This document shows, piece by piece, positions 49,473-52,963 of a stretch of 64,000 nt of DNA (the stretch's first letter is position 1; every line of letters starts with the position of its first letter). The stretch comes from Labrenzia sp. THAF82 (GTDB lineage: Bacteria; Pseudomonadota; Alphaproteobacteria; Rhizobiales; Stappiaceae). The stretch lies in NCBI RefSeq assembly GCF_009363435.1, contig NZ_CP045354.1, positions 4,616,501-4,680,500 of the forward strand, in the 5' to 3' direction. The notes under the pieces were generated by a model, which was not told the DNA's origin, made no database searches, and was given only the letters and a program-made list of their open reading frames with translations. Position numbers and translations under genes: made by a program.

Positions 49473-51395
49473 CTATTCCTGACTGTCCAGAAAGGCCTGC
49501 GCCGATTCCCTTGTCTCGTAGATGTGGGAGGCCCCTTTCAAGGTCTCTCCAAGCTTCAGGCGCATGAAAGCCGATCCGGAATACCGGGTCACTGTGTTGT
49601 AAAACCGGCTTTCAAGATCAGCGACCATTTCCGCATAGTCGTTGGCAATGTCATCATCCAGGTGAAAACCATCATAATTGACAATCACATCGACACGCTC
49701 GCTCAAGGGGCCACAGACCCGCTCCACCTGATCGCGGACCTGCTCCACTTCGGTCCGTGTGCGGATGCGCATCTTTTCAAAGTTGATGAAAAGCCGGTCG
49801 TGGGGAGGATCGAGCGCGATACGCTCGGGCAGATCGAGATGCAACAATTCGCGCCTCAGGTCCATTGGCCCTTCAGCAAAGAGACGTGCATCCATCTCCT
49901 GGAGTTCACCCATGATCGGTCGGAACCCCATACGGTCCAGGATATCGCGATCGACATCGATGCCCGGTGCAACTTCGGTCAAGACGAGCCCTTCTTCGCT
50001 CAGCTTGAAAACGCAACGCTCCGTAACATAAAGCACTGGCTGCCCGAGGCGCGCTGCCCGTCGTCCTGAAAATGTGACTTGTTCCACGTCGCTCAGAAAT
50101 TTGCGCGACGATCCTTCGTTCACAACCTCCATCCGACCGTCCGTCAACCTGACCTGCAGCCCCTTGGCCGTGAAAGTACCGGCAAAGACAAGCGATTTGG
50201 CGTTCTGACTGATATTGATGAACCCACCTGCCCCCGCCAGGCGCGGCCCGAAGCGGGACACATTGACGTTGCCAAGGGCATCAGCCTGAGCAAGCCCAAG
50301 ACAGGCCATGTCCAGTCCACCGCCGTCATAAAAATCAAATTGCGAGTTCTGGGGAATGACGGCATCGACATCCACGGCCGCACCGAAATCGAGACCGGAC
50401 GCCGGCTGCCCCCCGACAACCCCAGGCTCTGCCGTCAGGGTGACGTGGTTCAGCATGCCCTCCTCTGCCGCTACCGCGGCCACTCCTTCCGGCATTCCTA
50501 TGCCGAGGTTTATGACGCCGTTGACCGGAAGCTCAAACGCGCAACGCCTTGCGATGATCTTGCGCGGTCCGAGCGGCATCGCCGGGATTTCACCGGCAGG
50601 GGGTCGAATGCGGTTGGTGAAGGCATGGGAAAAGTCAGTCTTGTAGGTCTGCATGTGGTTTTCCGGCTTCGCCACCACCACGGCATCAACCAGAATACCG
50701 GGTATCTGGACGTCGCGCGCCTGCAGACTGCGCCCGCGAGCAAGGCGCTCAACCTGCACAATCACCACTCCCCCTGCATTCTTGACCGCCATGGCTTGCG
50801 CCAGATTGTCGATCACCAATGCTTCGCGTTCCATCGTGACATTGCCCGCCTCATCCGCCGTTGTGCCGCGCAGCAAGGCAACGGTCAGCTTCGGGGCCGG
50901 ATAATAAAGATACTCCTCTCCACCCAGTTTCATCAGGTCAATTTGAGGTTCGGTGGACATGTCATTGATAGCGCCGCCGCCATTGCGCGGATCGACGAAT
51001 GTCTCAAGCCCGACTTTTGACAACATGCCCGGTTTACCGGCTGCGGCGTCCCGGTAGAGTTGGCTGATACACCCCTGAGGCAGGTTCCAGCCCTGAATTT
51101 TTCCCGAAACGGCAAGCTCGGCCACTTTCGGGATCAGTCCCCAGTGACCGCCAACCACCTTTTTCAGAAGGCCATCATGACCGAGCCGGTTCAGGCCCCT
51201 GTACTTTCCATCTCCCTGACCGGCAGCAAAAAACAACGAGAGGTTTTTGGGTGTCCCGTGCGCCAGAAATCTTGCTTCAATCGCCGCAAGAAGCTCATCA
51301 GGAACACCTATACCGACAAAACCGGATGTTGTGATGGTGTCGCCGTCCTTCACCAGGGCAGCGGCATCCGACGCAGAGACAACCTTCCGCCGCAT
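49473..51395 (-). CDS. Acyl-CoA:acetate/3-ketoacid CoA-transferase (fused subunits)
   Basis: A 640-residue fused alpha/beta CoA transferase. Alpha part: SASDAAALVKDGDTITTSGF and GVPDELLAAIEARF; beta part: GVINLGIGMPEGVAAVAAEE and NSQFDFYDGGGLDMACLGLA. The order matches YdiF/propionate CoA-transferase-like enzymes that swap CoA between acetate and acyl groups. After the usual CoA-transferase end (about residue 525) there is an extra domain of about 110 residues with RVDVIVNYDGFHLDDDIAND, whose role is unknown. GGGAGG precedes the ATG. It has no metabolic partners nearby. Confidence 0.88.
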   Translation of the reverse strand: MRRKVVSASDAAALVKDGDTITTSGFVGIGVPDELLAAIEARFLAHGTPKNLSLFFAAGQGDGKYRGLNRLGHDGLLKKVVGGHWGLIPKVAELAVSGKIQGWNLPQGCISQLYRDAAAGKPGMLSKVGLETFVDPRNGGGAINDMSTEPQIDLMKLGGEEYLYYPAPKLTVALLRGTTADEAGNVTMEREALVIDNLAQAMAVKNAGGVVIVQVERLARGRSLQARDVQIPGILVDAVVVAKPENHMQTYKTDFSHAFTNRIRPPAGEIPAMPLGPRKIIARRCAFELPVNGVINLGIGMPEGVAAVAAEEGMLNHVTLTAEPGVVGGQPASGLDFGAAVDVDAVIPQNSQFDFYDGGGLDMACLGLAQADALGNVNVSRFGPRLAGAGGFINISQNAKSLVFAGTFTAKGLQVRLTDGRMEVVNEGSSRKFLSDVEQVTFSGRRAARLGQPVLYVTERCVFKLSEEGLVLTEVAPGIDVDRDILDRMGFRPIMGELQEMDARLFAEGPMDLRRELLHLDLPERIALDPPHDRLFINFEKMRIRTRTEVEQVRDQVERVCGPLSERVDVIVNYDGFHLDDDIANDYAEMVADLESRFYNTVTRYSGSAFMRLKLGETLKGASHIYETRESAQAFLDSQE

Positions 51396-51775
51396 GAAAT
51401 CCTCCCAGTTGTTTTTTCCAGTTTGGAACGGGCAAGGACGTGGCGTCCAGTGGCAACTTTTTTCTTGTCGATGTTCGTTGGCGTGACAGGGCCAGGAAAA
51501 GACACGCGCGTTCGTGGTCTTGCGGTCAACTCAAAGGCTCAACGAAAGGTACAGGCGGCGCTGGACATCCAACGACCAATGCGTCGGATACCGAAATCAC
51601 GCCAGCAGGTGAAGCCTGTCTTCAGCGCTCCCTTCAGAAGGACATGCGGTCACAATATGCCTGCAATTGCTTACTGCGTAGCGTAGAAAGTCTATCGGAT
51701 TTTTTTAGAGTGAGGAGAGTTGAAAACCATTTAGAAACAAAGACTTCACGGCGAAGCACTCTGAATGCCGGACAA
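51396..51775. other. Gene-free stretch, left part
   Basis: A plus-strand frame of 191 codons (51440-52015) runs through here but has no family motif and looks like chance. No other gene is seen; the region contains AT-rich runs (TTTTTTTAGAGTGAGGAG) near 51700. Confidence 0.4.
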
Positions 51776-51806
51776 ACAAAAAGGGTGCCGGTTTGCACCA
51801 GCACCC
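51776..51806 (-). terminator. Strong Rho-independent terminator on the minus strand in a gene-free region
   Basis: On the minus strand GGGTGCTGGT-GCAA-ACCGGCACCC is followed by TTTTTGTTTG. One pair is G-U in the minus transcript but would be C-A in the plus transcript, which favours minus-strand use. No protein gene ends here. Confidence 0.75.
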
Positions 51807-52170
51807 CCCTGTTTGGAGCAAGACGCTTGTTTCAGCTGCGTTTCCGAGGAAACGCGATGCCAAATCGATCCTGGTCTCCTGACCTTCAAGCTTCCTTCCA
51901 GAAGCCTTTCAGCCCGTGTGCACGAAATCTGGCGGATTTCGAACCCACGCCGGTCTCACGGATAGCCCGCCGTTACCGGTTTGCCGGAGCGCCATCTGCG
52001 TCACGTGGCCGCTGAAAGCGCATCCCATGTGGTCTCCCAAAACCTTCTGGTAAGCTCTCCCGAAGGATAACCCCCAGTCAATCTGGGCATGGGCTACTGA
52101 TTACCCAGTTTGGTGACCCGCTTACCAGGGCGGAACCTGTCTGGCTCAGTAGTTGATATGATAGTGGCCA
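51776..52170 (-). ncRNA. Candidate structured non-coding RNA (unidentified class)
   Basis: A block of about 390 bp lies in a gene-free gap between AT-rich flanks. Its minus strand ends in a strong terminator at 51776-51806. Inside, CTGGTAAGC (52047-52055) and GCTTACCAG (52120-52128) pair over 9 bp, enclosing a CCCAG/CTGGG hairpin. Further hairpins include CCGG/CCGG around 51980 and GCGTTTCC/GGAAACGC (51838-51855). GGTTCGAAATCC near 51945 looks like a tRNA T-loop. I tested this by eye against tmRNA, RNase P, SRP, 6S and the cobalamin riboswitch and found no match. The 5' end is not defined. Confidence 0.5.
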
Positions 52171-52445
52171 AATATTTACTTACTGTCTACTGCGATATTT
52201 ACTTTTCAACATCTACGGAATAAGCCTGTTGACAACTTGTGTATAAAATTACACGCGAGTAAACTTTCCATATTAACTACAAAATCTTATGCGATTTTTC
52301 GGATTTTACTTCTGCAACGCAGCAAATAGAGGATATTTCTGCGGCACTGCGTCAATTCATGACTGCTGCGATCAGACGTTTCAGCAGGACACAGCTGAGC
52401 TCCGGAAGGGAGCTTTGAAAGGCTTCAAATCTAAAGAGAGAAAGT
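52171..52445. other. AT-rich region between candidate RNA and tRNA-Gln
   Basis: Markedly AT-rich and free of genes. On the minus strand it contains possible promoter elements such as TTGTCAACAGGCTTATTCC and TTGAAAAGTAAATATC, and could drive the candidate RNA. tRNA-Gln transcription would also enter it from the right. Confidence 0.35.
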
Positions 52446-52520
52446 TGGCTGGGGTGGCAGGATTCGAACCTGCGCATGGCGGTACCAAAAACCGCTGCCT
52501 TACCGCTTGGCTACACCCCA
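52446..52520 (-). tRNA. tRNA-Gln (UUG)
   Basis: A complete cloverleaf on the minus strand with TGGGGTG/CACCCCA acceptor arms, D-arm GCCAAGCGGTAAGGC, anticodon loop TTTTTGG with anticodon UUG, and T-arm GCAGG-TTCGAAT-CCTGC. The 3' CCA is encoded. The first base pair is T-A (U1-A72), the usual feature of glutamine tRNAs. Confidence 0.95.
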
Positions 52521-52886: not shown

Positions 52887-52963
52887 CGGAGTGTAGCGCA
52901 GCCTGGTAGCGCACCTCGTTCGGGACGAGGGGGTCGGAGGTTCGAATCCTCTCACTCCGACCA
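52887..52963 (+). tRNA. tRNA-Pro (CGG)
   Basis: A complete 77-nt tRNA with acceptor CGGAGTG/CACTCCG, anticodon stem CCTCG/CGAGG around loop TTCGGGA (anticodon CGG), T-arm GGAGG-TTCGAAT-CCTCT and encoded CCA. It is followed by TTTTT, suited to termination or processing. Confidence 0.96.

Follow-up and report, generated by a model that had tools for sequence, protein, structure and literature searches.

The functions of OLE, ROOL and GOLLD, three large and structured bacterial RNAs, are poorly understood; one study describes them as RNA-only homo-oligomers with kissing loops, ROOL and GOLLD being carried by phages and prophages (PMC12286853). The same study takes palindrome-to-palindrome changes in OLE L9.3 and GOLLD L21a as evidence of self-contact (PMC12286853). 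The RNA described here, which is encoded in the window (the whole analysed stretch of 64,000 nucleotides), also switches palindromes, and its proposed self-contact is argued by the same logic. Unlike OLE, ROOL and GOLLD, it is smaller (~380 nt), matches no Rfam family, encodes a peptide in its mobile forms, resides in IS1595 transposons as well as in prophages, and switches its palindrome among at least ten hexamers.

To our knowledge, very few natural RNAs assemble with their own copies. We put at about 0.7 the probability that the locus represents a new family of RNAs that arose on mobile elements, which would be homodimeric and whose copy in the window would be a stand-alone RNA without the peptide. 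The odds appear even for a broader proposal, namely that this is a new self-assembling RNA class: a transposon- and prophage-borne, palindrome-switching homodimer, which would gate a membrane peptide and would have been captured repeatedly by hosts as an RNA-only particle after loss of the peptide. With ten palindromes swapped at one loop, the sequence evidence of RNA self-contact is unusually clear, and the RNA is short enough to be studied by routine gel and structural methods. The link to transposons and prophages, the tiny hydrophobic peptide and the survival of the RNA after peptide loss make the role of mobile self-pairing RNAs testable.

Locus and transcript ends

The window is carried by a 6.395-Mb contig, the host chromosome being that of a marine Roseibium. 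The original prediction had proposed a structured RNA of about 390 nt on the minus strand (51776..52170), which lies in a gene-free stretch of about 1 kb and ends in a textbook terminator that closes no protein gene; the sequence features held, and the reading as a structured RNA was supported. The gap (51396-52445) is bounded by a CoA-transferase gene and a tRNA-Gln and contains only mechanical ORFs without apparent support, e.g., one at 51440-52015 on the plus strand. A terminator scan recovered a stem of 14 pairs, capped by a 4-nt loop and followed by a T-rich tail, at 51810-51779 of the minus strand, and the intrinsic terminator CAGGGGGGUGCUGGUGCAAACCGGCACCCUUUUUGUUU (51774..51811, minus strand) is present in 18/18 aligned Roseibium copies. 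The next minus-strand gene past it is that of CoA-transferase, which starts at 51395. Five long DNA matches in relatives span positions 4-33 to 472-483 of a query of 501, i.e., from the promoter region through the terminator, an extent near the predicted interval. The RNA was delimited to 51774..52154 (minus strand, ~380 nt), with its 5' end placed by a promoter-like motif and its homologs found by covariance model; covariation, the promoter-like motif (15/38 copies) and the lack of a matching Rfam family back its reading as a structured RNA. Folding of the minus strand from 52200 to 51772 gave -170.6 kcal/mol (z = -4.06), and none of 100 shuffled sequences was as stable.

The tRNA-Gln(UUG), located by ARAGORN at 52446..52520, is also encoded on the minus strand, a short distance upstream of the RNA. 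A prophage insertion at this tRNA-Gln is unsupported, the tRNA 3' end not being duplicated in the window. As well, a tRNA-Pro (52887-52963) follows 0.4 kb past the tRNA-Gln, and the tRNA pair also adjoins the copies of two other genomes (G009 and G034).

Relatives and mobile elements

A DNA search of 61 genomes gave matches in 17, namely the window's own and 16 congeners. The copies were sorted into subtypes A (that of the window), B, C and D, which occupy different chromosomal places; the neighbouring genes are conserved in five B genomes and in six of the seven C genomes. When these 61 genomes were searched with a covariance model of the core (R1), 20 proved to carry copies, every one of them from Roseibium; among 397 genomes of the order the model picked out four, namely the window's own and one in each of three other families. 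A second model (R2) detected copies at E <= 0.01 in 24/45 Roseibium genomes and in 26/87 genomes of the family; it also scored 32.8 bits with L107 and L108, from another family of the order, and gave L113, which is kept as a candidate only, an E of 7e-4 in one search and 7e-6 in another. Since the sensitivity of these searches is limited, the copy counts are lower bounds. A class-wide model search of 385 genomes returned the window genome alone, the first look taking 10 candidates per genome, which makes it weak evidence of absence.

Scanning 84,980 species genomes for the pattern returned 18 matches, 15 of which were judged real by model score and anatomy; these belong to Roseibium, Methylopila, Xanthobacter, Phyllobacterium, Aestuariivirga, Taklimakanibacter, Nitratireductor, Salaquimonas and other Rhizobiales or Alphaproteobacteria. 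The remaining three (L085, L091 and L097) were taken as chance, with no R1 match and with R2 matches absent or at E 0.26 or worse. Four scans of viral contigs yielded L072, L076 (5' end cut), L078, L079 and L105. Among other pattern matches, seven of 11 in one scan (L069-L071, L073-L075 and L077; no R1 match), three of six in another (L102-L104; no R2 match) and one of six in a third (L111; R2 E of 0.083) were likewise attributed to chance. No match was obtained by blastn against plasmids with the window RNA, L105, L093 and L079 as queries, or against phages with the window RNA and L072. Two Roseibium genomes, G005 (L046/L047) and G032 (L058/L059), hold two copies each, of different subtypes, one chromosomal and one of subtype D with the peptide.

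Some of these copies lie beside genes of mobile elements. Pfam searches identified IS1595 transposases (DDE_Tnp_IS1595) at L065, L066 and L093, and a 329-aa ORF at L105 resembles an IS1595 transposase by eye. At L065, the transposase, the RNA and the peptide are enclosed by an inverted repeat matching at 21/22 positions. A weaker repeat (18/22) encloses the same three at L066, and it carries little weight alone because other loci reach 16-18/22 by chance. The copy L072 and its Phyllobacterium equivalent L096 adjoin a terminase small subunit, S24-type repressors immediately precede L079 and L088, and L078 is near an ORF6N protein. The RNA family still resides on transposons and in prophages, where it probably originated.

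An inverted repeat of 21/22 at L079 (CCGAAACGGGAAACA..., near -957 and +247 relative to the pattern match) flanks the S24-type repressor, the RNA and the peptide, and may represent either operators or transposon ends; given the chance level of 16-18/22 at other loci, the repeats of L047 and L079 are not claimed as transposon ends. Downstream of the RNA, L065 and L063 have reading frames (167 and 190 aa) that match nothing in Pfam, and on the opposite strand there, frames ending in ..LKTPPKPKK and ..LKPPPNLKK were seen by eye.

A covarying core

Compensatory changes across relatives, which the original prediction had named as a check, were found in two alignments. An unfitted MAFFT alignment of 17 core sequences shows two-sided changes at 11/23 named pairs, with 96.9% of cells paired as against 35-45% in slid controls; four of five measures were reached by 0/500 shuffles, and the fifth, further pair types, by 41/500. 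In 33 diverse copies, aligned by fitting to the structure of the covariance model, two-sided changes affect 17/19 pairs, and 95.4% of cells are paired (slid controls, 25-47%), with 0/500 shuffles reaching any of the five measures. Comparison shows a covarying core of P2, P3a/P3b and P4, followed by the terminator and, in many copies, preceded by a shared promoter-like motif. The original prediction had included neither the palindromic loop nor the pseudoknot, the relatives on mobile elements or the decayed peptide frame.

All elements of the fold lie on the minus strand. P1, which like P5 was judged by eye, would pair CUACUGA (52146..52152) with UCAGUAG (52094..52100), and its variants CUACUGA/UCAGUAG and CUACUGG/CCAGUAG were read by eye from the alignment. 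P2 pairs CCCAUG (52088..52093) with CAUGGG (52024..52029); in 19 hand-picked copies all six pairs are present in 17 and five of six in two, the variants including CCCAUG/CAUGGG, UCCAUG/CAUGGA, CCCACG/CGUGGG and CCUGUG/CACAGG. P3a pairs GCGCU (52017..52021) with GGCGC (51989..51993), and all five of its pairs change on both sides, with 97.5% of cells paired in the 33 sequences. It is surmounted by the P3b hairpin GCGGCCACGUGACGC (51998..52012), whose stem is paired in 85.9% of cells and whose apical palindrome CACGUG occupies 52002-52007. The most conserved element is the P4 stem-loop CCGGUA-ACGG[CGGGCUAU]CCGU-GAGA-CCGG (51950..51979), in which the two helices are paired in 98.2% and 100% of cells and 7/9 pairs change on both sides in the 33 sequences. 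A hairpin, P5, is predicted at 51915..51949, where relatives by eye have a hairpin of variable sequence.

A pseudoknot between UCCG (51985..51988) and CGGG in the P4 loop (51966-51969) is plausible but not proven, because its pairs hardly vary: every cell is paired in the 17 sequences, yet three of the four pairs are invariant and one varies on one side only. The 9-bp long-range pairing of CTGGTAAGC with GCTTACCAG that had been predicted upstream of the terminator did not survive the comparison. The complementary segments are present at 52120-52128 and 52047-52055, but among eight subtype-A copies both 9-mers occur in two (the window and a copy of the same species), 8 bp in one, one arm in two and neither in three. 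Such poor retention within subtype A does not support a helix, and the covarying helices lie elsewhere.

A peptide encoded by mobile copies

An ORF for a peptide of 28-32 aa (e.g., MKTSVKIEIKINVAACLFGIAAILKVLI), preceded by a Shine-Dalgarno-like sequence, is present in thirteen copies. The peptides align with gaps at the N-terminal side only, have GRAVY values of 0.87-1.59, and are probably membrane peptides. Differences among the ORFs by codon position are 0.495/0.340/0.648, the third position being highest. In 11/13 copies, L078 and L079 being the two that fail, the stop codon is followed by a terminator-like GC stem and a T-rich tail, the stem beginning 6-11 nt from the first base of the stop. 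Five of the peptides had no match in Pfam or NCBIfam, and nine searched against PHROGs gave only matches at E 0.017 or worse. In the mobile forms, the same transcript would also be the mRNA for this hydrophobic peptide. The RNA fold might gate the peptide, which would serve the element through exclusion or addiction, because base-pairing is predicted for most of the Shine-Dalgarno region; when 12 of the 13 copies were folded as single sequences, the pairing of this region was above the transcript average in nine and below it in three.

In the window, a remnant of the peptide frame, ..ETRIDLASRFLGNAAETSVLLQTG.. (51807..51878, minus strand), was recognised by eye through comparison with intact peptides, and codons such as ..RIDLA..FLG.. 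can still be made out. The ten codons between the previous in-frame stop and the remnant contain no ATG, GTG or TTG, and the first in-frame stop (51705-51707) lies past the terminator; by eye, the subtype-A copies L046 and L048 retain an in-frame stop. No intact peptide-like ORF was seen in Roseibium subtypes B and C or in the inspected chromosomal copies of other genera. The RNA is kept without such an ORF in Roseibium A, B and C as well as at L080, L082, L084, L086, L087, L089, L094, L107 and L108. ORF-less copies fall among ORF-bearing ones in a tree of the core, which suggests, with weak support, repeated loss of the ORF.

Short hydrophobic peptides ending a structured mRNA are familiar from type I toxin-antitoxin mRNAs, such as hok and DinQ (for the latter, see PMC3567139). 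The present RNA could be a module of this type, essentially an addiction gene whose folded mRNA encodes a toxic membrane peptide, the Roseibium copy being a decaying relic; the peptide at its 3' end, the predicted pairing around the Shine-Dalgarno region and the residence of copies in transposons and prophages all fit. However, unlike a relic, the ORF-less copies of Roseibium A, B and C keep the core, the palindrome and the terminator in many species, which argues that selection there maintains the RNA and not the peptide. Moreover, a generic promoter scan of the window showed no promoter for an antisense RNA, and hok- and DinQ-type mRNAs differ from this RNA, whose core is conserved without the peptide and which has a proposed homodimer loop. 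We therefore consider a toxin-antitoxin module unlikely. In the preferred reading of a homodimeric RNA of mobile origin, the peptide frame would have decayed in several lineages, including that of the window, while the core, palindrome and terminator were kept, and the RNA would have a function independent of the peptide, preferably as a stand-alone homodimer acting as a structural or trans-acting particle.

Known RNA families and the 3' end

Rfam 15, searched as the original prediction had proposed, gave only two tRNAs in the window at the gathering cut-off, and relaxed searches, which covered the window region together with L105, L079, L087 and L084, gave nothing that reached its own cut-off. 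A relaxed match of a human lncRNA model to the opposite strand was taken as chance. The original prediction had reported no signature of tmRNA, RNase P, SRP or 6S RNA, and ARAGORN found no tmRNA in the window or in L001-L019. GOLLD, ROOL, OLE and HEARO are among the families of Rfam. None of GOLLD, ROOL and OLE matched in the window, nor did IscB/TnpB omegaRNA or HEARO, and the three scanned neighbouring transposases were DDE_Tnp_IS1595. Searches of the open-access literature, a scope outside which most subscription papers lie, returned no recognised description of such an RNA. The RNA is regarded as new because it is absent from both Rfam 15 and the open-access literature searched.

The 3' end of the RNA showed similarity below the cut-off to two families, BjrC68 (RF02353; 22.9 bits, cut-off 39, E = 0.0023) and mmgR/suhB (16.9 bits, cut-off 41), and that of L105 matched suhB weakly (23.2 bits). 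These matches would suit an ordinary base-pairing, trans-acting sRNA of the alpha-proteobacterial kind with an Hfq-type terminator. However, they cover only the last ~100 nt; with BjrC68, the terminator hairpin and U-tract are shared and the core is unmatched. A covarying fold of this size also exceeds the needs of a seed-pairing sRNA, and such an identity seems quite improbable.

The palindromic P3b loop

The P3b loop carries the main evidence for self-contact. Among 20 distinct P3b loops from the 33 copies, 14 have a centred 6-nt Watson-Crick palindrome, and these comprise ten different hexamers (CACGTG, AACGTT, AGCGCT, CAGCTG, TGCGCA, TGATCA, ACTAGT, TTCGAA, TCATGA and TCGCGA). Shuffles gave a mean of 1.2 centred palindromes and a maximum of 7 in 5000, and the neighbouring P4 apex, used as a control, had 0/11; the test was made after the palindrome had caught attention, and the related sequences in these counts are not independent. 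In a looser test of the whole region (34 copies, with L105 added), a palindrome was present in 22/27 distinct regions (shuffle mean 7.8, maximum 16), and the 12 different hexamers found were inside the shuffle range (mean 7.2, maximum 14). The loop of L112, found later and outside these counts, is UACGUA.

As the central six nucleotides are self-complementary and switch from palindrome to palindrome, we strongly infer that two copies of the RNA pair through a homodimeric kissing loop at P3b. The dimer itself, or a larger homo-oligomer of which it is the unit, would then be the working form. In the dimer-initiation site of HIV-1, a palindrome of 6 nt occupies the middle of an apical loop of nine nt (2 + 6 + 1). 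By eye, many P3b loops show the same 2 + 6 + 1 nt arrangement between the 5' stem, palindrome and 3' stem; the RNA and organism are unrelated, and the resemblance is one of layout only. Dimerisation via P3b would not be universal, since six of the 20 distinct loops (L062, L063, L080, L086, L087 and L088) have no centred palindrome, L088 having CTCGAG off centre, and P3 is by eye absent from Aestuariivirga-type copies.

Any palindrome of 6 bp may also serve as a recognition site in DNA, and some copies adjoin transposases; the palindrome might accordingly be a DNA site for protein binding, recombination or restriction instead of an RNA-RNA contact. We hold this to be very improbable, because ten different hexamers at one place are not explained by any single protein, and because the palindromes occupy the apical loop of an RNA hairpin that itself covaries, by eye often with 2 nt between them and the 5' stem and 1 nt on the 3' side.

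Upstream region and neighbouring genes

The RNA lies upstream of the CoA-transferase gene (51395) on the same strand; however, a cis-acting leader or attenuator of this or another neighbour gene was rejected as the least credible explanation, since the neighbour genes differ among subtypes B, C and the mobile copies and the transcript is terminated ~380 nt before the CoA-transferase gene.

Upstream of the homodimeric RNA, as we prefer to read it, a promoter-like motif on the minus strand (52161..52189) consists of TAGACA (52184-52189), a 17-nt spacer and CACTAT (52161-52166), at which a generic sigma-70 scan called no promoter. The form TNGACW-N17-CANYAT, which was defined after the sequences were inspected, precedes 15/38 copies, both mobile and chromosomal (shuffle mean 0.02, maximum 1). 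By subtype, it is found in 3/6 of A, 4/5 of B and 0/7 of C, and 23/38 copies, including all of subtype C, are without it as written.

A conserved block lies further upstream (52203..52246, minus strand), with the 9-mer TTATACACA at 52238-52246 and an imperfect inverted repeat of TTGTCAACAG (52226-52235) and ATGTTGAAAA (52203-52212), and similar blocks occur in Roseibium subtypes A and B. The sequence TTATNCACA, on either strand, was found 60-330 nt upstream of the core in 10/38 copies (shuffle mean 0.3, maximum 3). Its perfect form is carried by the window (52238-52246) and by L045, L046, L051, L053, L058, L082, L084, L089 and L094, which belong to Roseibium and the Aestuariivirga-type group. 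The 9-mer (TTATACACA/TTATNCACA), which we take to be DnaA-box-like, hints at possible cell-cycle control.
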